A DNA stretch of 64,000 nucleotides from Halobellus litoreus (GTDB taxonomy: Archaea; Halobacteriota; Halobacteria; Halobacteriales; Haloferacaceae), in the NCBI RefSeq assembly GCF_024464595.1, contig NZ_JANHAW010000001.1:558001-622000 (forward strand), read 5' to 3'. Of this stretch, positions 44,087-64,000 are shown one piece after another. A program made the translations under genes and the position numbers. Below the pieces are notes generated by a model. It made no database searches. It worked only from the letters and a program-made list of their open reading frames with translations, and was not told the origin of the DNA. Each line of letters starts with the position of its first letter. The first letter of the stretch is position 1.

Positions 44087-45439
44087 ATGGCAGACCGAAG
44101 CCTACAGACAGCTCTAGATGCAGCTCAGGATCCAGTGGGAATGCTCCAACAGGCCGGCGGTCGGTGGGTCTGGCCGCAGGAAGTCAAACGCGAGTACACG
44201 AACTGGATGGACGAGCTTCGCGCCGCCCGCGAAACGTGCGTGTTGGCGGATCTCTCACACCACCAGATGGATCAGGTGATCGAGGGCGCTGACTCGTTCG
44301 ACCTCCTGAAGAACCTCTGTACGAACAGCTTCGAGGGGTTCGACGTGGGCAAGGCCAAGCAGGCCATCTTCTGCAACCCCGACGGCAAGTTCATCGGGGA
44401 CGGGGTGCTGCAGCGACTGGAGGAGGAAAAGTTCGTGATGAGCGGCAAAGTCCCAGCCGCACACTGGCTCGCGTATCACGCTGAAACGGGTGAGTACGAC
44501 GTCAGCGAAACCATCTATCCGAAGTCCTCGAAGACCGACGACGACCCGCATTACTACACCTACCAGGTCCAGGGACCGAACGCCCTCGACGTGATGCAGG
44601 AGATCGTCGACGAGTCTCTCACTGACATCCCGTTCTTCAACTTCAAGCGCGTGACCATCGCCGGCGAGGAAGTTCGCGCACTCCGTCACGGGATGGCCGG
44701 CGAAATCGGCTTCGAACTGCAGGGCCCCTACGAACACGCCGACCTGATCAAAGACGTCATCCTCGAAGCGGGTGAAGAATACGACATCCAACGGCTCGGG
44801 ACCCGTGCGTACGAACCGCTGAGCGTGAAGCTCGGCTGGGTCACGACGCACGTTCCAGCCATCTATACCGGCGAAGCGATGGAAGAGTACCGAGAGTGGC
44901 TGAGTGCGAGCAGCTACGAAGGAACGTATTCGATCGCTGGAAGCTACCACTCGGACGACATCCGCGATTACTACGTGAGTCCGATCGATATCGGCTACGA
45001 CCATATGGTCGAGTTCGACCACGAGTTCGTCGGACGGGAGGCCCTCGAAACCGAGGCGGCAGACCCCGATCGGACACGCGTGACGCTCGTCTGGGACGAC
45101 GAGGACGCGATCAGCATCTTCGCGTCGCTGTTCGACGACGGTGGGCTCCCACACAAGTCGATCGACCTGCCGCGCGATCGGTGGGGCGGTCACCACGACA
45201 AAGTGCTCAAAGACGGCGAGATCGTCGGCGTCTCGAAGAGCTTCGCGTACTCCTACAGTGATCGGGAGATGATTTCCATCTGCTCGATCGATCGAGAGTA
45301 CAGCGAACCCGGAACAGAGGTCACCTTCGTCTGGGGCGAAGACGGCGGTCAATCACCGAATCCGACGGTGGAGGCGCACTCGCAGACAGAGATATCCGCG
45401 ACCGTCGCACCGAGTCCGTACCTCGACGACGCACGATAA
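44087..45439 (+). CDS. LigM/DesA-like tetrahydrofolate-dependent O-demethylase (GcvT family)
   Basis: 450 residues. The two-part GcvT fold is visible, but the sequence resembles vanillate/syringate O-demethylases LigM and DesA much more than glycine-cleavage GcvT. Examples are GKAKQAIFCNPDGKFIGDGV at 88-107, LRHGMAGEIGFELQGPYE at 199-216, IYTGEAMEEYREWLSASSYEG at 259-279 and DYYVSPIDIGYDHMVEFDHEFVGREALE at 294-321. LigM transfers the aromatic methoxyl carbon to THF, giving methyl-THF. The LigM catalytic Arg in GRxPAxxW is Lys121 here (GKVPAAHW), while the Tyr in RAY (242) is present. The substrate could therefore differ from vanillate. DMSP demethylase DmdA is a less likely alternative. Confidence 0.85.
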   Translation: MADRSLQTALDAAQDPVGMLQQAGGRWVWPQEVKREYTNWMDELRAARETCVLADLSHHQMDQVIEGADSFDLLKNLCTNSFEGFDVGKAKQAIFCNPDGKFIGDGVLQRLEEEKFVMSGKVPAAHWLAYHAETGEYDVSETIYPKSSKTDDDPHYYTYQVQGPNALDVMQEIVDESLTDIPFFNFKRVTIAGEEVRALRHGMAGEIGFELQGPYEHADLIKDVILEAGEEYDIQRLGTRAYEPLSVKLGWVTTHVPAIYTGEAMEEYREWLSASSYEGTYSIAGSYHSDDIRDYYVSPIDIGYDHMVEFDHEFVGREALETEAADPDRTRVTLVWDDEDAISIFASLFDDGGLPHKSIDLPRDRWGGHHDKVLKDGEIVGVSKSFAYSYSDREMISICSIDREYSEPGTEVTFVWGEDGGQSPNPTVEAHSQTEISATVAPSPYLDDAR

Positions 45440-51948: not shown

Positions 51949-53895
51949 CTAAATCGAGGTGACGCGGGTGAACTCCTCGTCGAGCGCTTGGGCGTCTTCC
52001 GGCAGCAGCGCCACCACCAGGAAGTCCGCGTAATCAGCGAAGTACTCGACGAGGTCCGCGATCCGGTCCGAATCGATCGCTTCCAGCGAGTCTAACAACA
52101 TGAACGGCACCGTCTCGTGGAGGTCGTGCACCAGATAGCCCGCCAGCGCGAATATCAATCCCGTCACCTCCCGCTCGCTCTCCGAGAGGTGCTCGATCGT
52201 GTCCTCGTAGGCCGCCCCGTTCTCCGTCGTCCGCACGATGTGCAACTCGAACCGCGTCTGGCCGTCACTTCCCGACGGATTCTCGATCCGCTCGATCCAG
52301 ATCCGCTCGATGTTCTCGTAGCCCAATAGCTCCAGAATCGACTCCATGTGCTCGTTGAACGATTCGACCGCTTCCGCCTCGATCTGATCGATCTTCGTCC
52401 GCTGATCCGTCAGCTCTTCCACGAGCTCCGAGCGCTCTTCCCGGAGTTCGTCCGCCCGCTCGACGTCCGCTTCGATCGACTCGATCTCTTCGGTCACTTC
52501 CTCGAGATCCGACTCCAGACTGTCGATCTCGAACTCCAGTTGGTTTGCCTCCTTGTGCAGCGACAGGATCTCCTCGAAATCAGCCGATTCGAGGTTCTCC
52601 ACGTCCGACTCTAAGGCTTCGACCTCCTCGGTCAGCGACTCGCGGTTCTGCTTCAGCGCGTCGATTTGCTCGTCGCGCCGCTGGAGTTCCGACTCGATGT
52701 CGTCGAGTTTGCGTTCGATCTCCTCGCGGCGGCGCTGTTTCTTCGTCGCCTCCCGCTGGGCCTCCTTCTTCTCTTCCAGCCTCGTTTTGATGTCGTTCAA
52801 TTCGTCGACTTTCTCCGTGCGCAGGCGTTTCAGCCGGTCGATCGTCGATTCGATCTGCTCGCGCTCGACGGAGGAGCCGCAGGTCCAACACACCACGGTC
52901 TCGGACTCGGAGGCGACCAGTTGATCGGTCACCGAGCCCTCGCCGCTGTCGGCGGCCGTGCCGCCGTCTTCTAAGAGGTCGTAGTCTTCGGCTTCGAGGC
53001 GTTCCTCGTTGTACTGGATGAGGCTGCGGAGTTCGTTGATCTCCGTGTTGAGGTCCTGGCGCTCGGTTCGCAAGCGGTCGATGTCGGCTTCGAGGTTTTG
53101 GTGCTCGCCCATCGGCGCCTCGGGCAGTTCCTCGAGGTCGTCTTCGAGGTCGCTGCGCTCGCGTTTCAGCGAGGAGATGCTCTCCTCTTGGCGTTCGATT
53201 TTGCGACGGATGGATTCCAGTTCCGAGCGGGTCGAGCGGAGTTCTTGGAGTTTCTCTTCGAGTTCGGCTTGCTCTTTGCGGCCTTCTTCGACGTCGCGGC
53301 TGCTGTCGTCGATGTCGGCTTCGAGGTCGGCGAGTTCTTCGCGTTTGTCCTCGATTTTCTCGCGGAGTTGGGTGCGCTGTTGTTCGAGGTCGGGGAGGTC
53401 GCGCTTGTTGGATTCGATGCGGGCGAGTTCGTCGTTGATGTCACCCTTCTGGTCTTCGAGGGAGCGGATTTGCGAGCGGATGGCGTCGACGTCGACGGGA
53501 CGCATGATGACGTCGCGCAACTGCTCGCCGCGGGCGGCGGCCTGGCGGGCGTCGTTGGTTTCGAGGAGGAAGGCGAAGAGGTCGGCGACGGCGGGGTCGT
53601 CGAGGTAGGCGTCGCCGTCGAAGGTGACGCCGTCGCCGGCGCGGGTGAGAGTGCGTTCGTAGGTGGTGCCGTCGAGGGTGAGTTCGACACGACCGTCGTC
53701 GGCGTCGCCTTTCAGAGAGACGCGATGGCTGCCCATGGCGGCCATGATCGAGCGGAGGAAGGAGGTGCGATTGGTGGCGTTTTTGCCGGTGAGGACGGTG
53801 ACGCCGGGTGGGATGTCTACTTCGGTGTGATCGATGCCGCCGACGTTCTCGACAGAGAAGTGAGCGGAGTCAGTCAGTTGTTCGGAAGTTGCCAT
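51949..53895 (-). CDS. Archaea-specific SMC/Rad50-related ATPase
   Basis: 648 residues from the ATG at 53895. Head halves lie at both ends, and between them two coiled-coil arms (about 150-330 and 345-535) meet at a CxxC zinc-hook (CWTC, Cys336 and Cys339). The P-loop region is GKNATNRTS at 37-45, not the usual GxxGxGKS/T. The C-terminal head has signature LSESEREVTG near 575 and Walker B MLLDSLEAID near 605, with LSESE in place of LSGGE. Haloarchaea have such SMC-related proteins with degenerate nucleotide-binding motifs. It probably acts on DNA or chromosome structure. It diverges from mftA. Confidence 0.87.
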   Translation of the reverse strand: MATSEQLTDSAHFSVENVGGIDHTEVDIPPGVTVLTGKNATNRTSFLRSIMAAMGSHRVSLKGDADDGRVELTLDGTTYERTLTRAGDGVTFDGDAYLDDPAVADLFAFLLETNDARQAAARGEQLRDVIMRPVDVDAIRSQIRSLEDQKGDINDELARIESNKRDLPDLEQQRTQLREKIEDKREELADLEADIDDSSRDVEEGRKEQAELEEKLQELRSTRSELESIRRKIERQEESISSLKRERSDLEDDLEELPEAPMGEHQNLEADIDRLRTERQDLNTEINELRSLIQYNEERLEAEDYDLLEDGGTAADSGEGSVTDQLVASESETVVCWTCGSSVEREQIESTIDRLKRLRTEKVDELNDIKTRLEEKKEAQREATKKQRRREEIERKLDDIESELQRRDEQIDALKQNRESLTEEVEALESDVENLESADFEEILSLHKEANQLEFEIDSLESDLEEVTEEIESIEADVERADELREERSELVEELTDQRTKIDQIEAEAVESFNEHMESILELLGYENIERIWIERIENPSGSDGQTRFELHIVRTTENGAAYEDTIEHLSESEREVTGLIFALAGYLVHDLHETVPFMLLDSLEAIDSDRIADLVEYFADYADFLVVALLPEDAQALDEEFTRVTSI

Positions 53896-54305
53896 TGAGA
53901 CGCGTTGTTGTCGAGTACACATATCTTTTGTGCGTAGAACCCGCAATGACCGTAGTATTTCATAAAGAATATTAGTATTATTTAAATATTGTATTAATAT
54001 ACTTTTATGTCTCAGTGAATTCGTTCTAAAGCCTAAATTGTTCTATTAGCGCTAATTTAGCGTTAGATACAACTGATATCTATATTGAAAGTACAGTAGA
54101 AATATAGTATTATTGTTGAATAATTGTATACTGTATATCGAGCGTAGAATGTACTGACATAACGGCGGGCAACTGCGAAGAGGTCCGACAGTCGAACGGA
54201 TACTCTCGCTGGAATCGGCAACGGCTTCGAATCCGGCCCGGTTCTGTGGGTGGGGGGAGGGGGTATCCAAACGTATATGTTAGTTCGTTATGTTATTGGC
54301 ACTGT
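53896..54305. other. A/T-rich intergenic region upstream of the mycofactocin genes
   Basis: About 410 bases. From 53950 to 54160 the DNA is very A/T-rich, in contrast to the flanking genes, and it holds several TATA-like stretches. It likely carries the promoter of the SMC-related gene (leftwards) and of mftA (rightwards). No gene is evident. Confidence 0.65.
54272..54279 (+). promoter_or_regulatory. TATA box of mftA
   Basis: CGTATATG about 30 nt before the mftA ATG at 54306, which fits a leaderless or nearly leaderless mftABCF transcript. Confidence 0.55.
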
Positions 54306-54425
54306 ATGTCACAGTCAGCCGACCCGGGCAACGAGGCCGAGCAGTCCCCGACCGAGGAACCGGACATCGAGGAAGACCTCTTCGACGAAGAAATCCGTAT
54401 TGACGGGATCTGCGGCGTGTATTGA
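54306..54425 (+). CDS. mftA: Mycofactocin precursor peptide
   Basis: 39 residues: an acidic, unstructured leader (MSQSADPGNEAEQSP and on) and the core IDGICGVY at the very C-terminus. The known MftA consensus ends in IDGMCGVY, so Met is Ile here. In the known pathway MftC, with MftB, decarboxylates the terminal Tyr and links it to the Val. The proteolysed product becomes the redox cofactor premycofactocin and then mycofactocin. The stop codon is one base from the mftB ATG. The gene is too short for ordinary gene callers and is easily missed. Confidence 0.93.
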   Translation: MSQSADPGNEAEQSPTEEPDIEEDLFDEEIRIDGICGVY

Positions 54426-54426
54426 G

Positions 54427-54669
54427 ATGCCGACGACAGTCTCGAAGCCCTCTCACATCAAGTTCCGCCGCGAGGCGGACGGGGGCCTCGTCTACGACCA
54501 CGAGAATTACGGCTACGAGGACGCCTCGATGTACGCCGTCAGCGACACCGTTATCGATGCCCTGGAATTCGTCGGCGACGGGAAATCGCGAGACGCCGTC
54601 GAATCGAAGTTCTCGCCTCCGGTCGTCGAGTCGCTGCTCGAACGCGGGGTTCTCACCGATGGGGAGTGA
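54427..54669 (+). CDS. mftB: Mycofactocin chaperone (PqqD-like)
   Basis: 80 residues from the ATG at 54427. PqqD-like small winged-helix: IKFRREADGGLVYDHENYGYEDASMYAVSDTVIDALEFVGDG, then SPPVVESLLERGVL. MftB binds the MftA leader and presents it to MftC. The gene follows mftA by one base and overlaps mftC by 11 nt. Confidence 0.92.
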   Translation: MPTTVSKPSHIKFRREADGGLVYDHENYGYEDASMYAVSDTVIDALEFVGDGKSRDAVESKFSPPVVESLLERGVLTDGE

Positions 54670-55618
54670 GCCTCTTTCCGCGCCGGTGACGATCACCTGG
54701 GAAGTTACGCTGGGCTGTAACCTCCACTGCGACCACTGTCTGTCGGGGAGCGGTCCCGGCCATCAGATGCCCGACGAGCTCACGACGGCCGAAGCGAAGT
54801 CGTTCATCGCGGAACTCGACGAGATGGACGTCTTTCAGGTCAACATCGGCGGCGGGGAACCGTTCGTCCGCCCAGATATGCTCGAACTGCTCGAGGAACT
54901 CACCGACCGCGACATCTCGACGTGTGTGAGCACCAACGGCACGCAACTGGACGAGTCGACACTCGATCGACTGGAGGCGATGGACCCGCTCTTCCTCCAG
55001 GTGAGTATGGACGGACTCCGCGCCGACAACGACGCAATTCGGGGTGACGGCGTCTTCGACCAGGTCGTCGACGCGGTCTCGCGACTCGAAGATCGGGACA
55101 TCGGAACGACGGTCAACACGGTCGTTACCCGACAGAACGTCGAGGACCTCCCCGAGATATACGAACTGGCGACCGCACACGGCGCGGGGCTCAGGCTGAA
55201 CCGCTTCCGGCCGAGCGGTCGCGGCGAAGATACCTGGGACGAACTCCGCCTCCGCGAGGAGCAGATCCGGTTTCTCCACGGCTGGATCGACGAGCACCCG
55301 GACGTCAGAACGGGCGATTCGTTCTTCTACCTGAACGCGTTGGGAGAGGTCCGCAACAACACGCTCAAACAGTGCGGCGCGGGCTCGATGACCTGCCTCG
55401 TGGATCCGGTGGGAGACGTCTACCCCTGCGCGTTCACCCAGTGGGAACATCTCTCATCCGGCAACGTCATCGACGACGGCTTCCAGGCCGCCTGGAACGA
55501 GATCGCGAACCTCCGAAGCCGGATCGACGACCACGAAGGCTGTCCGGCCGTCGCGATGGGGAGCGCGGACCCGAACGGCGAAGACCCGCAGTTGCGGGCG
55601 ATCCTCTCGGGTGACTGA
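54659..55618 (+). CDS. mftC: Mycofactocin radical SAM maturase
   Basis: 319 residues from the ATG at 54659. The radical-SAM cluster is CNLHCDHC (Cys20, Cys24, Cys27). The C-terminal SPASM-type region carries CGAGSMTCLVDPVGDVYPC. In the characterised enzyme MftC removes the carboxylate of the C-terminal Tyr of MftA and forms the Val-Tyr carbon-carbon bond. Length and motif spacing are near those of mycobacterial MftC. It overlaps mftB and mftF, giving a tightly coupled operon. Confidence 0.94.
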   Translation: MGSEPLSAPVTITWEVTLGCNLHCDHCLSGSGPGHQMPDELTTAEAKSFIAELDEMDVFQVNIGGGEPFVRPDMLELLEELTDRDISTCVSTNGTQLDESTLDRLEAMDPLFLQVSMDGLRADNDAIRGDGVFDQVVDAVSRLEDRDIGTTVNTVVTRQNVEDLPEIYELATAHGAGLRLNRFRPSGRGEDTWDELRLREEQIRFLHGWIDEHPDVRTGDSFFYLNALGEVRNNTLKQCGAGSMTCLVDPVGDVYPCAFTQWEHLSSGNVIDDGFQAAWNEIANLRSRIDDHEGCPAVAMGSADPNGEDPQLRAILSGD

Positions 55619-58052
55619 TCCGGCGATGTCGGATCGGGGAGTCGGCGAGTACCGTCGTCGGGACACGGCGCGGTTGGTCGGCGACCTGCTCGTGTCGCGA
55701 CGGCCGCTGGTCGTGACGCGACTCAACGACACCGCCGCTGACCTGTTCGGAGCGCTCGACGACGAGGACTTTCGTGCTCCCGGGACCGTCGCGGCCTCCG
55801 GGGAGTACGACGTCGCGGCGGTCGAACGGCTGTTCGAACGGTTACACGACCGGGGCTTCCTGGAGTGGCGGCCGACGCGGGACCCGGAGTTCCGACCGCC
55901 GGTGTCCGTCGTCGTGACCGTCCGGAACGACCGCGCGCATCTCGAACGGTGTCTCGACGCCCTCGGGGAACTTCGCTATCCGTCCTACGAGGTCGTCGTC
56001 GTCGACGACGGGTCCACGGACGAGACGAAAGCGATGATCAAGGGCCACGAACTCGCCGCTGCCGGTCGAGCGCGCGTGGTCTCGGTCGGCAGTCCGGACG
56101 AGCCCATCGGGATCGGTGCGTCCCGGAACCGCGGCGTCGAGGCGGCGGCACACGACGTGATCGCCTTCACCGACGCGGACTGCAGACCGCGCCCCGAGTG
56201 GCTTTCCGAGCTCGTGCCGTGTCTCACCGCCAACGACGTCGTCGGCGGGCGGATCCGCCCCGCCGGCGAGAGCGCTGCGAGCGCGTACGAGGGGATCAAC
56301 TCCTCGCTCGATATGGGCGCGTACGCGTCCCGAATCGACCCCGCCGGGGCCACGCCGTACCTCCCGACGGCGAACCTCGTCGGCCGCCGCCGGGTGTTCG
56401 ACGCGGTCCCGTTCCCGGCCCGCGACGTAGCGGAGGACGTCGACGTCTGTTGGCGAGCGGTGAAAGCCGGGTTCGACGTCGTCTACACACCGACGGGGGT
56501 CGTCGAGCACGTCTACCGGACGGATTTGGGCTCGGTCGCCGCGCGACGGGCGACCTACGCGTCCTCGGAGGCGCTGCTCGCGCGTGAACACGGACGCGAC
56601 GAGGGACAGCGGGTCGGGATCCCGACGACGGCACTGCTCCTGTCCGCGCTCCTCCTCGTCGGCGTTCTCGGACGCGGACCGATGGCCGCCGGTGGCATCG
56701 TCGCTGCCGGCGGGCTGGCCGTCGCGCTGGCCGGGATCCGGGGTCGACGGATGTGGCGACGCTACGCCCGCCTTCCCGCCACCCTCTCTGTCCGCGACGT
56801 GGCGAGGAGTTGGGGGAGAGAAGTGGTGTCGTCGAGTTACACCGTCGCGCGCGAAGTGACGCGGTACTACGCCGTTCCCATCGCGCTCGTGGGCGGCCTC
56901 GCCTGGGGGGCCGGCGCGACGGCGGTCGGCGTGGGGACACTGGCGGCTGTCGTAGTCGCGGTCGGGCTGCCCGTGGCGGTCGAGTACCGCGTCCACGCGC
57001 CGGACGCCACGCTCGGGGGATACGGACTGTACTACCTCGCCGACCACTTCGGGTACCAGTACGGGCTCTATCGCGGCGCGTTCACCTACCGGACGATCGC
57101 CCACGTCCGCCCGGACGCGCGGTTTCGGCTGGTGGGCCCGGGAGCAAGACTGTCCGCCGCGATGGGCGCGGATGACGACACGGAGCCGACGCGGACCGTC
57201 ACTGTCGAGGGCGCCACGGCGCGGTTCCGCGTCGCATCGAGCACCGAGAAGTGGTGGTTCGGGGACGAGGGACTCCGCGGCGAGCGTGCCGTCCTGGCGG
57301 ACCTCCTCGCGCGATTGGAGCCGGGCGACGTGTTCCTCGACGTCGGCGCGAACGTGGGTCTCTACAGTTGCCTCGTCGGCCGGGCGCTCGCGGACGGCAC
57401 CGTCGTCTCCGTCGAACCGCATCCGAAAAACGCCGCGCGCCTCGAAGAGAACCTCGCGGCGAACGGCGTCGCGGCGCGCGTGATACGTCGAGCCCTGGGG
57501 CGACGCAACCGACGGGGCGCGCTCACCGGTTCGGAGGAGCCGCCCGGGACGGGGACCCCGACGCTTCTCGACGCCGCCCGATCCTCGGCGAAGGGGGCGG
57601 AAGCTGAGAACGAGGCGGAAGTCGATGGCGGGTCGAAGCGGACACCTCGACAGGTGGGGCGGAAGCAGAGCAGGGGCGTGGCTGAGGCCTCGCTCGTCGA
57701 CACGGCCGTCGTGACGGGGGACTCGCTTTTGGCCTCGGGAGAGAGCCCGCAACCGACGGTCGTGAAGATCGACGTCGAGGGCGCGGAGGCAGACGTCGTC
57801 GCCGGACTGGTCGCCACGCTGACAGCGCCGGCGTGTCGCCTCGTCTACTGCGAGGTGCACCCGGGGTTGTTGGACGACCGCGATCAGGATCCCGACGCCG
57901 TCCGGCGCACCCTTCGAGACTGTGGCTTCCGGGTCGAGACGGTCCGGGAGCTACCGAACGGACGGGCGGTTCTCAGAGCGCAAAAGCCGACCCCGAAGCG
58001 GGGCAGAACTGTCGGCCAAAGGGGAACCGCCGACCAACGCAGAACGGACTGA
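55611..58052 (+). CDS. mftF: MftF-type glycosyltransferase fused to FkbM-family methyltransferase
   Basis: 813 residues from a GTG at 55611 that overlaps the mftC stop by 8 nt (an ATG at 55626 is an alternative). Residues about 97-330 are a family-2 glycosyltransferase with VDDGS, the metal-binding FTDADC near 185 and EDVDVCWRA. Two hydrophobic segments (about 340-375 and 420-458) suggest membrane association. From about 560 an FkbM SAM-methyltransferase domain follows: FLDVGANVGLYS near 573, VEPHPKNAARLEENL near 603, VVKIDVEGAEADVV near 717. A Gly/Ser/Ala insertion sits at about 645-695. MftF glucosylates mycofactocin, and mycobacterial MftM methylates it, so one chain may do both. Confidence 0.88.
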   Translation: MTDPAMSDRGVGEYRRRDTARLVGDLLVSRRPLVVTRLNDTAADLFGALDDEDFRAPGTVAASGEYDVAAVERLFERLHDRGFLEWRPTRDPEFRPPVSVVVTVRNDRAHLERCLDALGELRYPSYEVVVVDDGSTDETKAMIKGHELAAAGRARVVSVGSPDEPIGIGASRNRGVEAAAHDVIAFTDADCRPRPEWLSELVPCLTANDVVGGRIRPAGESAASAYEGINSSLDMGAYASRIDPAGATPYLPTANLVGRRRVFDAVPFPARDVAEDVDVCWRAVKAGFDVVYTPTGVVEHVYRTDLGSVAARRATYASSEALLAREHGRDEGQRVGIPTTALLLSALLLVGVLGRGPMAAGGIVAAGGLAVALAGIRGRRMWRRYARLPATLSVRDVARSWGREVVSSSYTVAREVTRYYAVPIALVGGLAWGAGATAVGVGTLAAVVVAVGLPVAVEYRVHAPDATLGGYGLYYLADHFGYQYGLYRGAFTYRTIAHVRPDARFRLVGPGARLSAAMGADDDTEPTRTVTVEGATARFRVASSTEKWWFGDEGLRGERAVLADLLARLEPGDVFLDVGANVGLYSCLVGRALADGTVVSVEPHPKNAARLEENLAANGVAARVIRRALGRRNRRGALTGSEEPPGTGTPTLLDAARSSAKGAEAENEAEVDGGSKRTPRQVGRKQSRGVAEASLVDTAVVTGDSLLASGESPQPTVVKIDVEGAEADVVAGLVATLTAPACRLVYCEVHPGLLDDRDQDPDAVRRTLRDCGFRVETVRELPNGRAVLRAQKPTPKRGRTVGQRGTADQRRTD

Positions 58053-58092: not shown

Positions 58093-58956
58093 TCAGAGCA
58101 GTTCCTTCTCCTCGAGGAACGCGACGACGCGCTCGGCCGCCGCGTCGGGGGGCGCGTCGATCCGCTCGCCGGCGCTCTTCGTCCCGCCGCCTCCCCGGCC
58201 GAGCATCCGGTAGATCCGCTCTTCGACCGTCTCCGACCGCGGCGGGCGCCCGCGACCCCAGCGCTCGTTCGGCCTGACAGTTTCGACCGTCGCGTTGCCG
58301 ATGCTCATCGAGAACCGGGTTTCGCCGGGCACGACGTTCGTCAGTTCGAGCGTTTCGATGGTCGCTCTCCGCCCGGCGATCGCGGTATCTAACGATGCCC
58401 GATCGGGGTCGGTGAACCCGGAGTCGACGCCCAGCACCGCCGGGAGCGCCGTGACGACGACCTCCTGACGCCCGATCGCGAGCTTCCGCTGGACCGGGAG
58501 TTCGCTCGCTTCGAGATCGACGTCGGCCTCGACGGCGAGATCGTCCGGATCGAGGGCCGTGATCCGAGTGACGCTCGGCCAGTCCAGTCGGGCCGCGGCG
58601 AGTCCGGCGACCTCCGATCCGGCGAACGAGTCGGATTCGCCGACGAACACGGCCGTCGGCGACTCGCGGGCCGCGACGCGGGCGAGCGCGGCGGCGAACT
58701 TCTCGCTCGCGATCCCCTCGATCGGGTCGAACGCGACGTGAAGTCCCCGGTCGGCGCCGCGCTCCAGCGCCGAGCGGACGCACCGCTTCGCGGCGTCGCC
58801 GCCGACGCCGACGGCGAGCACCTCGTCGGCGGCGTCGAGTGCGGCCTCGAGGGCGACGCGGTCGTCGATGCTGAGCTGCCGGCGGTACGGTTCGGCGTTG
58901 CCGTCGTCGTCGACGACGCGGTGCGGTTCGGGGCGTGCGGTGACGAGCGCTCTCAT
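58093..58956 (-). CDS. etfB: Electron transfer flavoprotein subunit beta (FixA type)
   Basis: 287 residues. EtfB pattern: SIDDRVALEAALDAADEVLAVGVG, VFVGESDSFAGSEVAGLAAARLDWPSVT near 105 and the dipeptide-rich C-terminal region ending in an acidic tail. It pairs with EtfA (61457). In FixABCX complexes the pair carries electrons to FixC and FixX, in some cases by bifurcation. It overlaps the upstream SDR gene by 4 nt. Stops 40 nt from the convergent mftF. Confidence 0.93.
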   Translation of the reverse strand: MRALVTARPEPHRVVDDDGNAEPYRRQLSIDDRVALEAALDAADEVLAVGVGGDAAKRCVRSALERGADRGLHVAFDPIEGIASEKFAAALARVAARESPTAVFVGESDSFAGSEVAGLAAARLDWPSVTRITALDPDDLAVEADVDLEASELPVQRKLAIGRQEVVVTALPAVLGVDSGFTDPDRASLDTAIAGRRATIETLELTNVVPGETRFSMSIGNATVETVRPNERWGRGRPPRSETVEERIYRMLGRGGGGTKSAGERIDAPPDAAAERVVAFLEEKELL

Positions 58957-59753
58957 CGCGCCGTGTACCCCCCGTCGACCGGGAGCGTCGCGCCGGTGAT
59001 CGCGGCCGCGTCGTCGGACGCCAGAAACGCCACGGCGCGCGCGACGTCTTCGGGCGCGGCCGTCCCGAGCGGCGTGTCCTCGATCATCCGTTCGAGCGTT
59101 TCCTGCCCACCGGTCGACCCCTCGCCGCCGTCGGTGTCGTCGAGCGCCGCCTCGAGCATCGGCGTTTCGACGACCCCTGGACAGACCACGTTCACCCGGA
59201 TTTCAGGCGCGTACTCGACGGCGAGCGAGCGCGTGAGCGACACGAGCGCCCCCTTGGTCGCGGTGTAGACGTCCATCTCCGGTTCGGCGACGAGCGCCGC
59301 GACGGAGGCGTTGTTGACGACGACGCCGCTGCCGTCGCCGGTGTCCCGCATCGCCGGGATCGCGTGCTTGCAGGCGTACATCGGGCCGCGGAGGTTGACG
59401 CCGGTCAGGAACTCGTAGGCCTCGTCGGTCACCTCCGTGATCGGACCGTCGGCCTCCCGGGAGGCGACGGCGGCGTTGTTGACCAGCACGTCCACGCGGT
59501 CGAACTCGCGTTCGGCGTGTTCGATCATCGCCTCGACGGCGTCCTCGTCGCTCACGTCCGCCTCGACGGCGGCGGCTCGACCGGCGTCCGCGCCGGTCTC
59601 GGATTCGATCTCCGCGGCGGTCGCCGCGGCCGCCTCGCTGTCGAGATCGGCGACGACGACGTCGGCCCCGCGCTCGGCCAGCGTGCGGCACGTTGCCGCG
59701 CCGATCCCGCTCGCACCACCGGTCACGACGGCCGTTCGGTTGTCGAGGCGCAT
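58953..59753 (-). CDS. Short-chain dehydrogenase/reductase
   Basis: 266 residues from the ATG at 59753. Cofactor motif TGGASGIG at 11-18, NNAA at 92-95, catalytic Ser150, Tyr163 and Lys167 (YTATK), and the C-terminal GATLPVDGGYTAR. Longer frames upstream run through fixX and are rejected. It lacks the long insertion after the second strand that marks the SDRs known to need mycofactocin, so this one probably uses free NAD(P). It lies inside an Etf/Fix operon, which is unusual. Confidence 0.93.
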   Translation of the reverse strand: MRLDNRTAVVTGGASGIGAATCRTLAERGADVVVADLDSEAAAATAAEIESETGADAGRAAAVEADVSDEDAVEAMIEHAEREFDRVDVLVNNAAVASREADGPITEVTDEAYEFLTGVNLRGPMYACKHAIPAMRDTGDGSGVVVNNASVAALVAEPEMDVYTATKGALVSLTRSLAVEYAPEIRVNVVCPGVVETPMLEAALDDTDGGEGSTGGQETLERMIEDTPLGTAAPEDVARAVAFLASDDAAAITGATLPVDGGYTAR

Positions 59754-60146: not shown

Positions 60147-61460
60147 TCACAGCGATCGGAACCCCCTGTAGCCGTCCTTCAATAGGTCGACGACGCCGGC
60201 ATCGCTCCGGCGGAACGCGCGGTAGGCCTGCTTCCAGGTGAGCCCCTCCGCGTCGCTCGCCGCCGAGTACATCCCGCGCAACGTCTCCGTGGCGATGCCG
60301 GGATAGGCCCCGTACATCCGCTCGTTCTTCAGGAACTTCGGCAGGTTGCGGTGCTGTTTCATATCTTGCAGGACGTAGGAGTCCTCCAACTTCCGGTCGT
60401 AGTGCTCGCCGAAGGCGTCCCAGTTTCCGTCTCGCGACCGTTCGATCGCCGACTCGGCGGCGAGGAGGCCGCTCTTGATGCCGTAATCCAGCCCCCGGAA
60501 CGTGTAGCCCTTGTTCAGGACGAGCCCGGCCGCGTCGCCGACGAGCGCCACCCGGCCGTCGTATCTGTCCGGGAGCGAATCGTAGTCGTGTTCGGGCACC
60601 AGGATGCCCTGGTACTCCTCGAGGGCGTCGCCCTGCACGTACGGCCGGACCGTGTCGAGTTCCATAAACTCCTCTAAGAGGCCGTAAAGCGGCGTTCCCG
60701 AACCGCCGTAGCCTTCCTCGCCGAGCCACCGTAAGGTCTCTAGGCCCCCGACCGCACCCACGGAGATGTACTCCTCGAACGTGTAGATGAAGTAGCCGAT
60801 GGTGGGCGCGCCCTCGGGGTAGCCCGTGTAGATGTAGGCCGCGCCCTCGTCGCTGTCGAGGGTGAACCGCTCGTTGATCGTCTCCCGGCCGACGTCGAGG
60901 ACCTTCTTCACCGACAGCGCCATGTCCTCGTTGCGCATCGTCCGCTGGATTCCGGTCTTCCGCCCGACGGTCGTGTTCACCCCATCGGCACCGACGACCG
61001 CGTGACAGGCCAGGTCCCCGTTCTCGCGGTCCGTGTGGACGACCGCGCGGTCGGCCTCCTGGCTCACGTCTCGCACCGTCGTCTCCGGCAGGAACACCGC
61101 CCCCTCGTCGACGGCGCGGTCGACGAACCAGCGATCGAACTTCCCGAGCATCAGCGTGTAGTTCGGTTCCTCGCGGAGTTCGAGGTCGCGGTAGCCGATC
61201 GAGACCTCGGCGTCGCCGTGGAGCAGTTTGATGTTGTGTTCGATGACGTGTCGCTCCAGGGGTGCCTCCTCCGGGAACTCCGGGACGAGGTCCGCCAGAA
61301 TGCTCCCGTAGAGCACGCCGCCGGTGACGTTCTTCATTCCCGGTTGCTTGGCCCGATCGACGAGTGCGACGTCGAAGCCCTCGGTCGCGAGTTTGTAGGC
61401 GGCGGCCGTCCCGGCCCGACCGGCACCGACGACGACCACGTCGAAGTCGACGGCCGTCAT
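60147..61460 (-). CDS. fixC: FixC-type flavoprotein (ETF:quinone oxidoreductase family)
   Basis: 437 residues. FAD-binding VVVGAGRAGTAAA at 9-21 and a second FAD motif RVALVGDAAGLVLNKGYTFRG near 312. Its PGMKNVTGGVLYG block (about 40-52) is typical of FixC/ETF-QO. It accepts electrons from ETF and passes them on to quinone or, with FixX, to ferredoxin. It overlaps etfA by 4 nt. It is not a geranylgeranyl reductase, which shares the fold. Confidence 0.94.
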   Translation of the reverse strand: MTAVDFDVVVVGAGRAGTAAAYKLATEGFDVALVDRAKQPGMKNVTGGVLYGSILADLVPEFPEEAPLERHVIEHNIKLLHGDAEVSIGYRDLELREEPNYTLMLGKFDRWFVDRAVDEGAVFLPETTVRDVSQEADRAVVHTDRENGDLACHAVVGADGVNTTVGRKTGIQRTMRNEDMALSVKKVLDVGRETINERFTLDSDEGAAYIYTGYPEGAPTIGYFIYTFEEYISVGAVGGLETLRWLGEEGYGGSGTPLYGLLEEFMELDTVRPYVQGDALEEYQGILVPEHDYDSLPDRYDGRVALVGDAAGLVLNKGYTFRGLDYGIKSGLLAAESAIERSRDGNWDAFGEHYDRKLEDSYVLQDMKQHRNLPKFLKNERMYGAYPGIATETLRGMYSAASDAEGLTWKQAYRAFRRSDAGVVDLLKDGYRGFRSL

Positions 61461-62605
61461 TCTGTCACCTCCGGTCCGTCGGCGTCGGACTCCCCGTCGG
61501 CGGTCGCTTCGGCCGTCGACCGCTCCTCGTCCTGCCCGTTTTCGTCGTCGTGTTCATCTTCAGCAGTCTGCTCGCCTTCAGCAGTCTGCTCGTCTTCGGT
61601 ATTCTGCTCACCTTCGGCACTCTGCCCGTCCGTCCGCTCGTCTTTGGCGGCGCGGATTGCCTCGGCCAGGGCCGGTCCGTGTTCGAACGCGTCGCCGACG
61701 ATACCGATGTCCGCGAAGTTGAAGATCCGCGCGTCGGGGTCGGCGTTGATCGCCACGAGGGTGTCGGCGTTCACCGAGCGCATATGATACGAATCGCCGG
61801 AGATGGCCATCGGAACGTACAGTTCCACGTCGATCTCCTTGCCCGTGACGCCGATCTGGCGGTCGTAGGGGACCCATCCCTCGTCCGACGGCGGCCGCGA
61901 CGCCCCGACGGCCGCCCCCAGCGCGTCGGCCAGGTCGTCGACGACCTGGAAGCCGTCCGGGCCGCCGAGGCCGAAGCCGCCGGCGACGATCCGGCGCGCC
62001 TTCGCGAGGTCCGACTCGGGGACGTCGACCGTCTCGACGTGCCGCACCCGGTCGTCGTCTTCGATACCGACTTCCACGGAGCGGACCGACGGGGAACCGC
62101 TCGGCGCGGTCTCCGGGGTCCCCAGTGCCTCCGTGTTCAGCGTCACCACCGGCGGGCCGCCCTCGAAGCCGAGTTCGGCGTACGCCCGGCCGCCGTAGGC
62201 CGGCCGCCCGGCGGTGAGTTCGCCGTCGCGGACCCGGAGGAGGCAGTCGGTGACGCACCCGCCGCGGAGGGCCCGCGACGTCGCCGCGGCGAGATCCGTC
62301 CCGTCGGGCGTGTCCGGAAGGAGCACGACCCGCGGCTCGGAGACGGCCGCCGCGAGCGCGGTCGCGCGTGCTCGGACGCCCGCCGCGCCGGCGCGGAACG
62401 CCTCCCCGTCCTCGCGGAGGACGTGGACGACCTCGTCCGGGGCTCCCGGCGACAGAGCCGCCGGTGCGGTGAGCCCGTCGAACGCGACGCCGACGACTCG
62501 CGGGGAGGTCCCGTCCGCCCCGGACAGTTCGGCCGCGACGCGGTGGGCCTCCTCGAACAGCACCGTCTCCTCGGAGCCCGGGACAACGACGATCGACCCC
62601 GTCAT
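61457..62605 (-). CDS. etfA: Electron transfer flavoprotein subunit alpha (FixB type)
   Basis: 382 residues. C-terminal FAD domain: RRIVAGGFGLGG near 205-216, LGAAVGASRPPSDEGWVPYDRQIGVTGKEI, ELYVPMAISGDSYHM and LVAINADPDARIFNFADIGIVGDA. The consensus GGRG is GGFG here, which is unusual. A long acidic Glu/Gln/Thr tail (about 320-382) contains imperfect short repeats. It pairs with EtfB at 58093. It overlaps the upstream OYE-like gene and fixC by 4 nt each. Confidence 0.93.
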   Translation of the reverse strand: MTGSIVVVPGSEETVLFEEAHRVAAELSGADGTSPRVVGVAFDGLTAPAALSPGAPDEVVHVLREDGEAFRAGAAGVRARATALAAAVSEPRVVLLPDTPDGTDLAAATSRALRGGCVTDCLLRVRDGELTAGRPAYGGRAYAELGFEGGPPVVTLNTEALGTPETAPSGSPSVRSVEVGIEDDDRVRHVETVDVPESDLAKARRIVAGGFGLGGPDGFQVVDDLADALGAAVGASRPPSDEGWVPYDRQIGVTGKEIDVELYVPMAISGDSYHMRSVNADTLVAINADPDARIFNFADIGIVGDAFEHGPALAEAIRAAKDERTDGQSAEGEQNTEDEQTAEGEQTAEDEHDDENGQDEERSTAEATADGESDADGPEVTE

Positions 62606-64000
62606 GCCGAAAGCTCCCGTGCGAGCATCTCGCCGTCGTAGATCGCCTTGTCTATCAGCCTCGGAGCGACGCAGTCGCCGATCCGGTGGACCGCCCCGTC
62701 GACGCCCCGCTCGCGGATCGCTTCGGCGAGCCCGTTACGGGCGCGCCGGCGCTCCGCGACCACGAGCGAGTCCGCGGGTCTCGTCGTCATCTCTTCGGAG
62801 TAGACGTTGAGCAACTGCGCGGCGCCGTCCTCGAAACCGATGATCGTGGTGTGGGTCTCGATGTCGACGTCGTTCTCGTACAGCGTCTCCAGGAACGGCG
62901 GGACGTTCGTGCCTTCGAGTTGATCGCCGGGGTGATACGAGGTCGTGACGAAGGTCACCTCGCAGTCCTGTTTGTCGAGGAGGTACTCCGCGACGCCGAC
63001 GCCCGCGGCGTGTTTGTTGTTGTCGAAGACGATCACCCTGTCGCCGACCGCCTCCCCGCGGAGCACGTCCCAGGAGCGGTGGACGTCGGGACCCGCGAGG
63101 TCTGGCGCTCGCTCGGTAGCCCCGATCGCGATCACGATGTCGTCCCACGACTCGCCGGCGAGGTCTCCGGCTTCGACTTCGGTGTCCGTCTCGACGGTCA
63201 CGTCGCGGTTGTCGAGTTGGTTGCGGAGGTTCCGGACGGCGTCGCCGAACTCCCGGCGGGAGTCGACCTGGGTCGCGATGTTCGACTGCCCGCCGAGTTC
63301 GGACTCCTTCTCGCGGATCGTCACGTCGTGCCCGAAGTCGGCCGCCGTGACCGCGAAGGAGAGTCCGGCGGGACCGCCCCCGACGACTAACACCTCTCTC
63401 GGGTCCGGGGCCGAATCGAGGTCCTCGATGTGGGGGATGGCCGTCTCGCGGCCCGACCGGGGCGTCTGAATGCAGCCGACGTGACCGTTCGTGTGGATCC
63501 CGCCGAGGCAGTTCTGGTTGCACGCGATGCAGTGGGTCACCTCTTCGTCCTCGCCGCGACGGACCTTGCGGACGGTGTCGGCGTCGCAGATGAGTTGCCG
63601 GCACATCCCGACGAAGTCCGCGTCGCCCGCCTCCAGCACGTCGTTGGCCTTCGTGAGGTCGTTGATACGGCCGGCCGCGATCACCGGTACGTCCAAGAGT
63701 TCCCGCGCCGCGCCGTAGTATTCGGCGGTGTATCCCAGGGGCGCGTGCATCGGGGCGTCCGTGATGTGGAGCTTCGAGATCGTGGCGATGTCGGAGTCCA
63801 GGAAGTCCAGGCTGGGGTGGAGGCGGCGGATCACCTCGACGGCGTAGTCGTAGTCGTAGCCGCCGTCTTCCATCTCGTCGAGTGTCAGGCGGATGCCGAC
63901 CGGGAAGTCCTCGCCCACGCGGTCGCGGATCGCCTCGACGACTTCGTTCACCAACCGGACCCGGTTGTCGATCGACCCGCCGTACCTGTCCGAGCGAGTG
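62602..64000 (-). CDS. FadH/OYE family oxidoreductase (N-terminus outside the window)
   Basis: About 466 C-terminal residues are visible. The right edge ends inside RYGGSIDNRVRLVNEVVEAIRD of the flavin barrel. The iron-sulfur motif CIACNQNC, 11 residues, then C is the [4Fe-4S] motif of 2,4-dienoyl-CoA reductase. It is followed by an FAD/NAD domain (VVGGGPAGLS). Some families of this type are annotated as mycofactocin-system FadH/OYE oxidoreductases. It is the first gene seen of the etf/fix operon, overlapping etfA by 4 nt. Substrates range from dienoyl-CoA to trimethylamine-type compounds. Confidence 0.9.
   Translation of the reverse strand, partial: TRSDRYGGSIDNRVRLVNEVVEAIRDRVGEDFPVGIRLTLDEMEDGGYDYDYAVEVIRRLHPSLDFLDSDIATISKLHITDAPMHAPLGYTAEYYGAARELLDVPVIAAGRINDLTKANDVLEAGDADFVGMCRQLICDADTVRKVRRGEDEEVTHCIACNQNCLGGIHTNGHVGCIQTPRSGRETAIPHIEDLDSAPDPREVLVVGGGPAGLSFAVTAADFGHDVTIREKESELGGQSNIATQVDSRREFGDAVRNLRNQLDNRDVTVETDTEVEAGDLAGESWDDIVIAIGATERAPDLAGPDVHRSWDVLRGEAVGDRVIVFDNNKHAAGVGVAEYLLDKQDCEVTFVTTSYHPGDQLEGTNVPPFLETLYENDVDIETHTTIIGFEDGAAQLLNVYSEEMTTRPADSLVVAERRRARNGLAEAIRERGVDGAVHRIGDCVAPRLIDKAIYDGEMLARELSA

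Follow-up and report, generated by a model that had tools for sequence, protein, structure and literature searches.

A haloarchaeal mycofactocin locus with a shortened MftC, no detectable MftD and a convergent ETF/OYE operon

We describe a mycofactocin locus in a 64,000-nucleotide (nt) stretch of the Halobellus litoreus genome (contig NZ_JANHAW010000001.1, positions 558,001 to 622,000), which we call the window. The locus is genuine but not canonical; haloarchaeal mycofactocin systems of this kind have been on record since 2011. Its radical S-adenosylmethionine (SAM) maturase, MftC, has no ligands for the second auxiliary iron-sulfur cluster (Aux II), a clean and testable trait. The genome has no MftD above cut-off, and the mft genes face a convergent operon encoding electron transfer flavoprotein (ETF) subunits and a flavoenzyme of the old yellow enzyme (OYE) family, which makes a good, though unproven, case for substitution of a pathway step. 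On balance we favor the view that this is the haloarchaeal form of an MftD-less, OYE/ETF-type module for mycofactocin biosynthesis and re-oxidation.

Mycofactocin genes in the window and in other haloarchaea

A preliminary description of this DNA, made from the sequence alone, proposed an intact and canonical mycofactocin cluster at positions 54306-58052. The gene coordinates are correct, as are the 1-nt gap between mftA and mftB and the overlaps of 11 nt (mftB/mftC) and 8 nt (mftC/mftF), and all four core proteins score above the curated NCBIfam cut-offs (TIGR03969, NF043018, TIGR03962 and TIGR03965; Table 1). This agreement is not fortuitous. The 39-codon mftA product, MSQSADPGNEAEQSPTEEPDIEEDLFDEEIRIDGICGVY, ends in IDGICGVY as described, the PqqD-like chaperone encoded by the second gene is MftB2, the CX3CX2C motif of the radical SAM enzyme is at MftC residues 20-27, and this protein groups with MftC rather than with unrelated peptide maturases. 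The words "intact" and "canonical" have to be given up: the genome is without MftD and without an MftE of the haloarchaeal clade, MftC is shortened and MftF is fused to a second domain. The preliminary description had not picked up the shortened SPASM end of MftC, the FkbM domain on MftF, or the absence of mftD and mftE from the cluster. The acidic, salt-adapted composition of the proteins, to which it drew attention, is ordinary in haloarchaea.

While the identification of a haloarchaeal mycofactocin locus stands, its occurrence is not new, because a mycofactocin system on a plasmid of Haloterrigena turkmenica was reported in 2011 (Haft, PMC3023750) and NCBI annotation of mftA, mftB2 and mftC exists on two haloarchaeal plasmids. 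MftC scored above cut-off in 9 of 293 sampled genomes of the order, including the genome of the window, and a contig scan of genomes gave nine loci with MftC proteins 81-90% identical, in Halobellus, Halorubrum, Halolamina and others. We compared 15 haloarchaeal loci, counting the one in the window (L060 and L061 are near copies). MftA with an unchanged IDGICGVY core accompanies MftC in every one of them, and the order mftA, mftB2, mftC is kept throughout. The next gene is mftF in 14/15; the exception is L042, where mftC is followed by ETF beta with no mftF in between and the locus ends at the contig end.

In most of the haloarchaeal loci the mft genes are followed by a convergent operon of ETF beta, a short-chain dehydrogenase/reductase (SDR), a ferredoxin, a FixC-like protein, ETF alpha and OYE, and beyond this, where the locus extends far enough, by a chelatase-like von Willebrand factor A (VWA) gene (and an AAA gene) and then an array of mycofactocin-coupled SDR genes. 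L041 and G039/G012 have an arrangement different from this main haloarchaeal module. At E 1e-70, SDRs of the TIGR03971 family are present in 2-9 copies in all nine mycofactocin-positive haloarchaea and in none of eight negative ones. The genome of the window (G000 in the coordinates below) has eight TIGR03971 SDRs above cut-off and one just under; with a single exception these genes lie together beyond the window. There, tandem genes form a dense array of nicotinoproteins at G000:C1:626127-633529.

Table 1. Features of the mycofactocin locus and the convergent operon, in window coordinates
Feature	Position	Strand	Evidence
Candidate promoter element of the mft operon, TATCCAAACGTATATG	54264..54279	+	motif kept before mftA in roughly half of 14 haloarchaeal loci
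mftA, mycofactocin precursor, 39 aa, core ...IDGICGVY	54306..54425	+	TIGR03969 34.3 bits vs cut-off 25; PF23709 28.2 vs 27
mftB2, PqqD-like peptide chaperone, 80 aa	54427..54669	+	NF043018 (MftB2) 130 bits vs cut-off 62
mftC, radical SAM maturase, 319 aa, only Aux I cysteines of SPASM	54659..55618	+	TIGR03962 309 bits vs cut-off 265
Retained Aux I cysteines C239, C246, C257, C295 of MftC	55373..55543	+	alignment, cysteine scan
mftF, glycosyltransferase (GT2) and FkbM methyltransferase, 813 aa, GTG start	55611..58052	+	TIGR03965 281.4 bits vs cut-off 280 (residues 24-502)
FkbM methyltransferase domain of MftF	57330..57935	+	residues 574-775; PF05050 61 bits, TIGR01444 84 bits
ETF beta-like subunit, relative of mft_etfB	58093..58956	-	TIGR04503 64 bits vs cut-off 200; PF01012; kept in other haloarchaeal loci
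SDR oxidoreductase inside ETF operon	58953..59753	-	not TIGR03971: 172 bits vs 300
FixX-like ferredoxin, 96 aa	59756..60046	-	86% identical to the 4Fe-4S ferredoxin beside the Haloterrigena mft cluster
FixC / ETF-quinone oxidoreductase-like flavoprotein	60147..61460	-	NF007450 266 bits
ETF alpha-like subunit, relative of mft_etfA	61457..62605	-	NF038209 125 bits vs cut-off 240; PF00766
OYE/FadH-family flavoenzyme, related to mycofact_OYE_2	62602..64000	-	TIGR03997 612-627 bits vs cut-off 793; full-length match to histamine dehydrogenase 6de6

MftC without the Aux II cysteines

The MftC of the window covers positions 8-287 of the 339 in the TIGR03962 profile, and its SPASM end is gone. All haloarchaeal MftC proteins in the genome search end at profile positions 284-289; all 20 MftC matches in the bacterial phylum of genome G294, which we used for comparison, end at 333/334. 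When MftC proteins from 15 haloarchaeal loci and 5 from bacteria were aligned, and 16 bacterial ones scanned for cysteines, the Aux I cysteines proved to be kept in 15/15 haloarchaeal sequences and the Aux II cysteines in 0/15. The haloarchaeal proteins are without the CX2CX5C triplet, and the final PEC is replaced by PQL. The bacterial proteins all have CX2CX5CX3C, and the last cysteine as well (PEC in 14, PGC in 2). The remaining C239, C246, C257 and C295 of the window's MftC we take to be the Aux I set, following the ligand pattern of anSME. We set aside a frameshift or assembly error as the source of the short protein, as the length (317-319 aa) and the ending are the same at all 15 loci.

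Compared with the seven-cysteine SPASM motif (CX9-15GX4C-gap-CX2CX5CX3C-gap-C), all 15 haloarchaeal proteins lack three cysteines of CX2CX5CX3C and the last cysteine, and their cysteine pattern is that of a Twitch domain, a shortened SPASM domain that can ligate a single auxiliary cluster (PMC6231123; SPASM and Twitch are also treated in PMC9012708). The best sequence match among solved structures is the Twitch enzyme SkfB. The name SPASM derives partly from mycofactocin, and by its cysteines haloarchaeal MftC would be a founding SPASM enzyme in Twitch-like form. Since no haloarchaeal MftC protein retains the Aux II ligands, we propose that the enzyme has a single auxiliary cluster, Aux I, and we infer that it still works.

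A literature search at title and abstract level, with most subscription papers outside its reach, found no earlier report of an archaeal MftC that is Twitch-like or without Aux II. What Aux II contributes to SPASM enzymes has been described as unclear (PMC9012708). A whole clade of MftC proteins that lack its ligands amounts to a natural experiment on this question, and one that can be tested in a single purified enzyme.

OYE and the missing MftD and MftG

MftD (TIGR03966, cut-off 471 bits) was not detected above cut-off in any of the nine mycofactocin-positive haloarchaeal genomes, where the best score was at most 154 bits; in the genome of the window, which is 99.94% complete, the best score was 23 bits. 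MftD is found in most but not all species with mycofactocin (Haft 2011, PMC3023750). Mycobacterium smegmatis without mftD makes no premycofactocin (PMFT) (PMC7491314), so some replacement is needed. MftG (TIGR03970, cut-off 387) was likewise above cut-off in none of 27 haloarchaeal and bacterial genomes, including G676, which has MftD, and without MftG re-oxidation also needs a carrier. The absence of MftG from about 25% of genomes with MftC has been noted, with possible stand-ins a stated open question (PMC11778925). The best match to the MftG model in the genome of the window, at 248 bits, is an unlinked GMC oxidoreductase (G000:C2:1234675-1236228), which is also present in G240 and not in the other seven mycofactocin-positive haloarchaea.

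OYE is present in 9/9 mycofactocin-positive and 0/8 negative haloarchaea. In the G294 phylum, OYE_2 is above cut-off in 15 of the 18 genomes with MftC versus 1 of 377 others (Fisher p = 2.5e-23, a descriptive value, since related genomes are not independent), and MftD is lacking in 17 of the same 18. The nearest OYE is 36-218 nt from mftC in 15/18 genomes (15/17 assessable ones, the contig of G437 ending 321 nt past mftC) and 19.8 kb away in G590, while G676, the sole genome of the 18 with MftD, has no OYE on its mftC contig. One genome of this phylum, G688, has two OYE_2 genes above cut-off (G688:C1:485997-489906) and no MftC at E 1e-70; the genome may be incomplete, or the OYE pair may be used without mycofactocin.

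Among actinobacterial plasmid records, on which this part of the contrast rests, three Streptomyces plasmids show the full arrangement mftABC-OYE1-OYE2-etfA-FixC-FixX-etfB and two more show its first part, with no mftD or mftG near any of the five, and four clusters that do have mftD have no OYE/ETF genes beside them. On the MftC tree, clusters with MftD and clusters with OYE are intermingled; the MftD label has to change three times or more, and this speaks for repeated exchange of the two types. The association was partly known already, because Saccharopolyspora was noted to be missing mftD and to have a TIGR03997 gene (BGCFlow, 2024, PMC11162802). To this we add that MftD and OYE occur inversely across lineages, that an ETF chain accompanies OYE and that the association extends to haloarchaea. 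The OYE/ETF operon is a specific candidate stand-in for MftD and for MftG, the latter lacking in roughly a quarter of MftC genomes. Tentatively, we suggest that an MftC with one auxiliary cluster suffices for haloarchaea to make mycofactocin, Aux II being dispensable for the two-step chemistry, and that OYE, ETF and the quinone oxidoreductase are a second, repeatedly exchanged solution for the MftD and MftG steps.

The OYE has a flavin mononucleotide (FMN) barrel, a 4Fe-4S motif (CX2CX3CX11C) and Rossmann domains, and it runs about 500 nt past the end of the window (full gene, G000:C1:620611-622530). Its full-length relatives include histamine dehydrogenase, an oxidative deaminase of primary amines with iron-sulfur and flavin. 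Enzymes of the histamine dehydrogenase kind can pass electrons to ETF. All nine mycofactocin-positive haloarchaea have a second OYE on the same contig, in the genome of the window at G000:C1:633661-635616 (L097:3659-5614), and the two copies might split the MftD-like and MftG-like jobs. Paralogous A and B copies are found in haloarchaea, in Streptomyces and in the G294 phylum (also L060, L041, L107 and L098); A copies keep the histidine of the active-site motif and B copies are without it, and within each lineage the copies group together, a hint of parallel duplication or of heteromers.

Proposed pathway and its alternatives

In the pathway that we envisage, MftB2 would present MftA to MftC, which, going by its family, would decarboxylate and cross-link the C-terminal Val-Tyr of MftA with the radical-SAM cluster and Aux I only. 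A peptidase would then free the cross-linked core: MftE in most of the haloarchaeal relatives, probably another peptidase in the genome of the window. OYE and ETF would replace MftD and perhaps MftG, and a plausible route for electrons runs from 3-amino-5-[(p-hydroxyphenyl)methyl]-4,4-dimethyl-2-pyrrolidinone (AHDP) or mycofactocinol through OYE, ETF alpha/beta and the FixC/FixX pair, in which the FixX-like ferredoxin is the likely partner of the FixC-like protein, to quinone. The same chain may also re-oxidize mycofactocinol and in this way replace MftG. MftF would add a sugar chain that the FkbM domain probably O-methylates, and the clients would be the tandem mycofactocin-coupled SDRs beyond the window.

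Several points weigh against this scheme. The haloarchaeal OYE proteins score 612-640 bits with TIGR03997, under the cut-off of 793, although this is still their best family by far, and haloarchaeal ETF alpha and ETF beta are also under the cut-offs of the bacterial mycofactocin-associated models (Table 1). Sequence does not fix the reaction of the OYE: among solved structures its best score is with 2,4-dienoyl-CoA reductase, an ene-reductase, and in the active-site motif (KxGH) of the haloarchaeal A copy a lysine stands where amine dehydrogenases carry an aromatic residue before the histidine. The plasmid comparisons would miss an mftD on the chromosome. The occupancy of the MftC clusters is judged from cysteines, and an AlphaFold model of MftC (ten close homologues; pLDDT 48, with values under 40 over most of the C-terminus) was of too low quality to be used. 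Gene content, the cysteine pattern and co-occurrence are what the sequences show, and every reaction of the pathway is predicted from them.

It is also conceivable that OYE might serve re-oxidation only. OYE/ETF would then correspond to MftG, and an unrelated and unlinked amine or alpha-hydroxy-acid oxidase would do the work of MftD. The lack of MftG in all 27 genomes and the gap left for it in the literature (PMC11778925) fit such an arrangement, and ETF with a quinone oxidoreductase would give electrons a natural way into respiration, but OYE genes come directly after mftC, in the place of mftD, their occurrence is inverse to that of mftD even within one phylum, and we identified no shared alternative oxidase. 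We regard this explanation as unlikely, though deserving of serious attention.

A different end product, either glycosylated and methylated AHDP or a mycofactocin-like molecule without the ketoamide, would agree with the lack of MftD, and the shortened MftC and extra methyltransferase could mean different chemistry. We consider this quite improbable, given that the IDGICGVY core is unchanged, that mycofactocin-coupled SDRs occur only together with the cluster, and that Saccharopolyspora erythraea, of a genus in which mftD is missing, is cited as making methylated mycofactocin (PMC11162802). Replacement of MftD by OYE/ETF remains the reading that we prefer.

MftE and the FkbM domain of MftF

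MftE is encoded near mftA or mftF in most haloarchaeal loci, and it was not found in the DNA around the cluster in the genome of the window, L035 or L036. The 11 mft-linked haloarchaeal creatininases (MftE) form one clade with an SH-aLRT support of 99. The genome of the window has four MftE-like creatininases; in a quickly built tree, in which two of them have long branches, none of the four falls in this clade. Nor was a protein of the MftE clade found in G216, which was placed in the same genus. The two creatininases closest to the clade have orthologues in mycofactocin-negative members of the genus. MftE is present in most but not all species with mycofactocin (Haft 2011, PMC3023750), and M. 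smegmatis that lacks mftE continues to produce mycofactocin, though less of it (PMC7491314), so another peptidase can stand in and the absence of mftE need not be fatal.

These results bear on two further explanations. If the cluster were intact and canonical, with MftD and MftE encoded elsewhere in the genome, the ordered core genes and the MftE-like creatininases would be accounted for, but the very low MftD score in a nearly complete genome, the absence of MftD from eight relatives and the placement of the four creatininases make this highly improbable. Decay of the locus through loss of mftE would agree with the lack of an MftE-clade protein in the genome of the window and in G216. We give this little credence, as the remaining reading frames are all uninterrupted, eight client SDRs score above cut-off, and production in M. 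smegmatis persists to some extent without mftE (PMC7491314).

The FkbM domain is fused to 6 of 13 MftF proteins (the window's own, L037, L038, L040, L043 and L056), while those of L035, L036, L039, L041, L055, L060 and L062 are unfused. The motifs of the FkbM domain are intact. On the glycosyltransferase tree as drawn, the fusion label needs three changes, and the well-supported branches are compatible with one origin. We rejected the FkbM domain as a homologue of MftM, the mycofactocin oligosaccharide methyltransferase: there is no significant similarity, and MftM belongs to Methyltransf_11. From the fusion it seems that sugar-chain methylation may have an origin separate from MftM.

Promoter and neighboring genes

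An A/T-rich stretch precedes mftA, as the preliminary description said. Within the last 45 nt before the gene is the motif TATCCAAACGTAT (54264-54276), which is kept in about half of the haloarchaeal loci. The element at 54264-54279 is probably the promoter of the mft operon, with a putative transcription factor B recognition element (BRE) and TATA box, and its position only about 27-42 nt upstream of the mftA ATG suggests a leaderless transcript. An Rfam search for RNA elements near the operon gave no matches.

Divergently upstream of mftA, where many relatives carry mftE, is a gene for ASRP, an Archaea-specific SMC-related protein (window 51949-53946, 692 bits). A member of the vanillate/syringate O-demethylase family (DesA/LigM, GcvT-like) is encoded at window 44087-45439, with 473 bits, under the equivalog cut-off. 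Just past the end of the window, at L059:10664-13916 (G000:C1), are genes for a VWA protein resembling cobaltochelatase and Mg-chelatase and its AAA partner, a pair that adjoins the ETF/OYE operon in those loci of the main haloarchaeal group that reach this point.

Comparison with known systems

Like haloarchaeal MftC, the Twitch enzymes BtrN, MoaA and SkfB have ligands for one auxiliary cluster only, but they act on other substrates, whereas haloarchaeal MftC is clearly of the MftC family. Histamine/trimethylamine dehydrogenase and 2,4-dienoyl-CoA reductase share the fold family of the OYE; the two amine dehydrogenases differ in the aromatic residue before the active-site histidine. MftM resembles the FkbM domain in being a SAM-dependent methyltransferase that accompanies MftF, although it is encoded by a separate gene.

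The canonical mftABCDEF(G) clusters of mycobacteria and other actinobacteria share with the haloarchaeal locus the MftA core, an MftB-like chaperone, the radical SAM domain of MftC, and MftF. Unlike it, they encode MftD, in most cases MftE and frequently MftG, their MftC has the complete SPASM domain, and those examined have no OYE/ETF genes beside mft. The clusters of the Streptomyces plasmids, Saccharopolyspora (PMC11162802) and the G294 phylum are likewise without MftD and have OYE at mftC, with ETF where the available sequence sufficed. In these bacteria, however, all MftC proteins examined have the full SPASM motif, OYE/ETF genes are downstream in the same direction as the mft genes, and MftF is unfused in those examined.

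The cluster on pHTUR01 of Haloterrigena turkmenica (PMC3023750) differs from that of the window in having MftE beside mftA, no SDR inside the ETF operon and a location on a megaplasmid. The two share MftA, MftB2, MftC (85% identical) and the MftF-FkbM fusion, as well as the convergent ETF/OYE operon, the chelatase-like pair and the SDR array.

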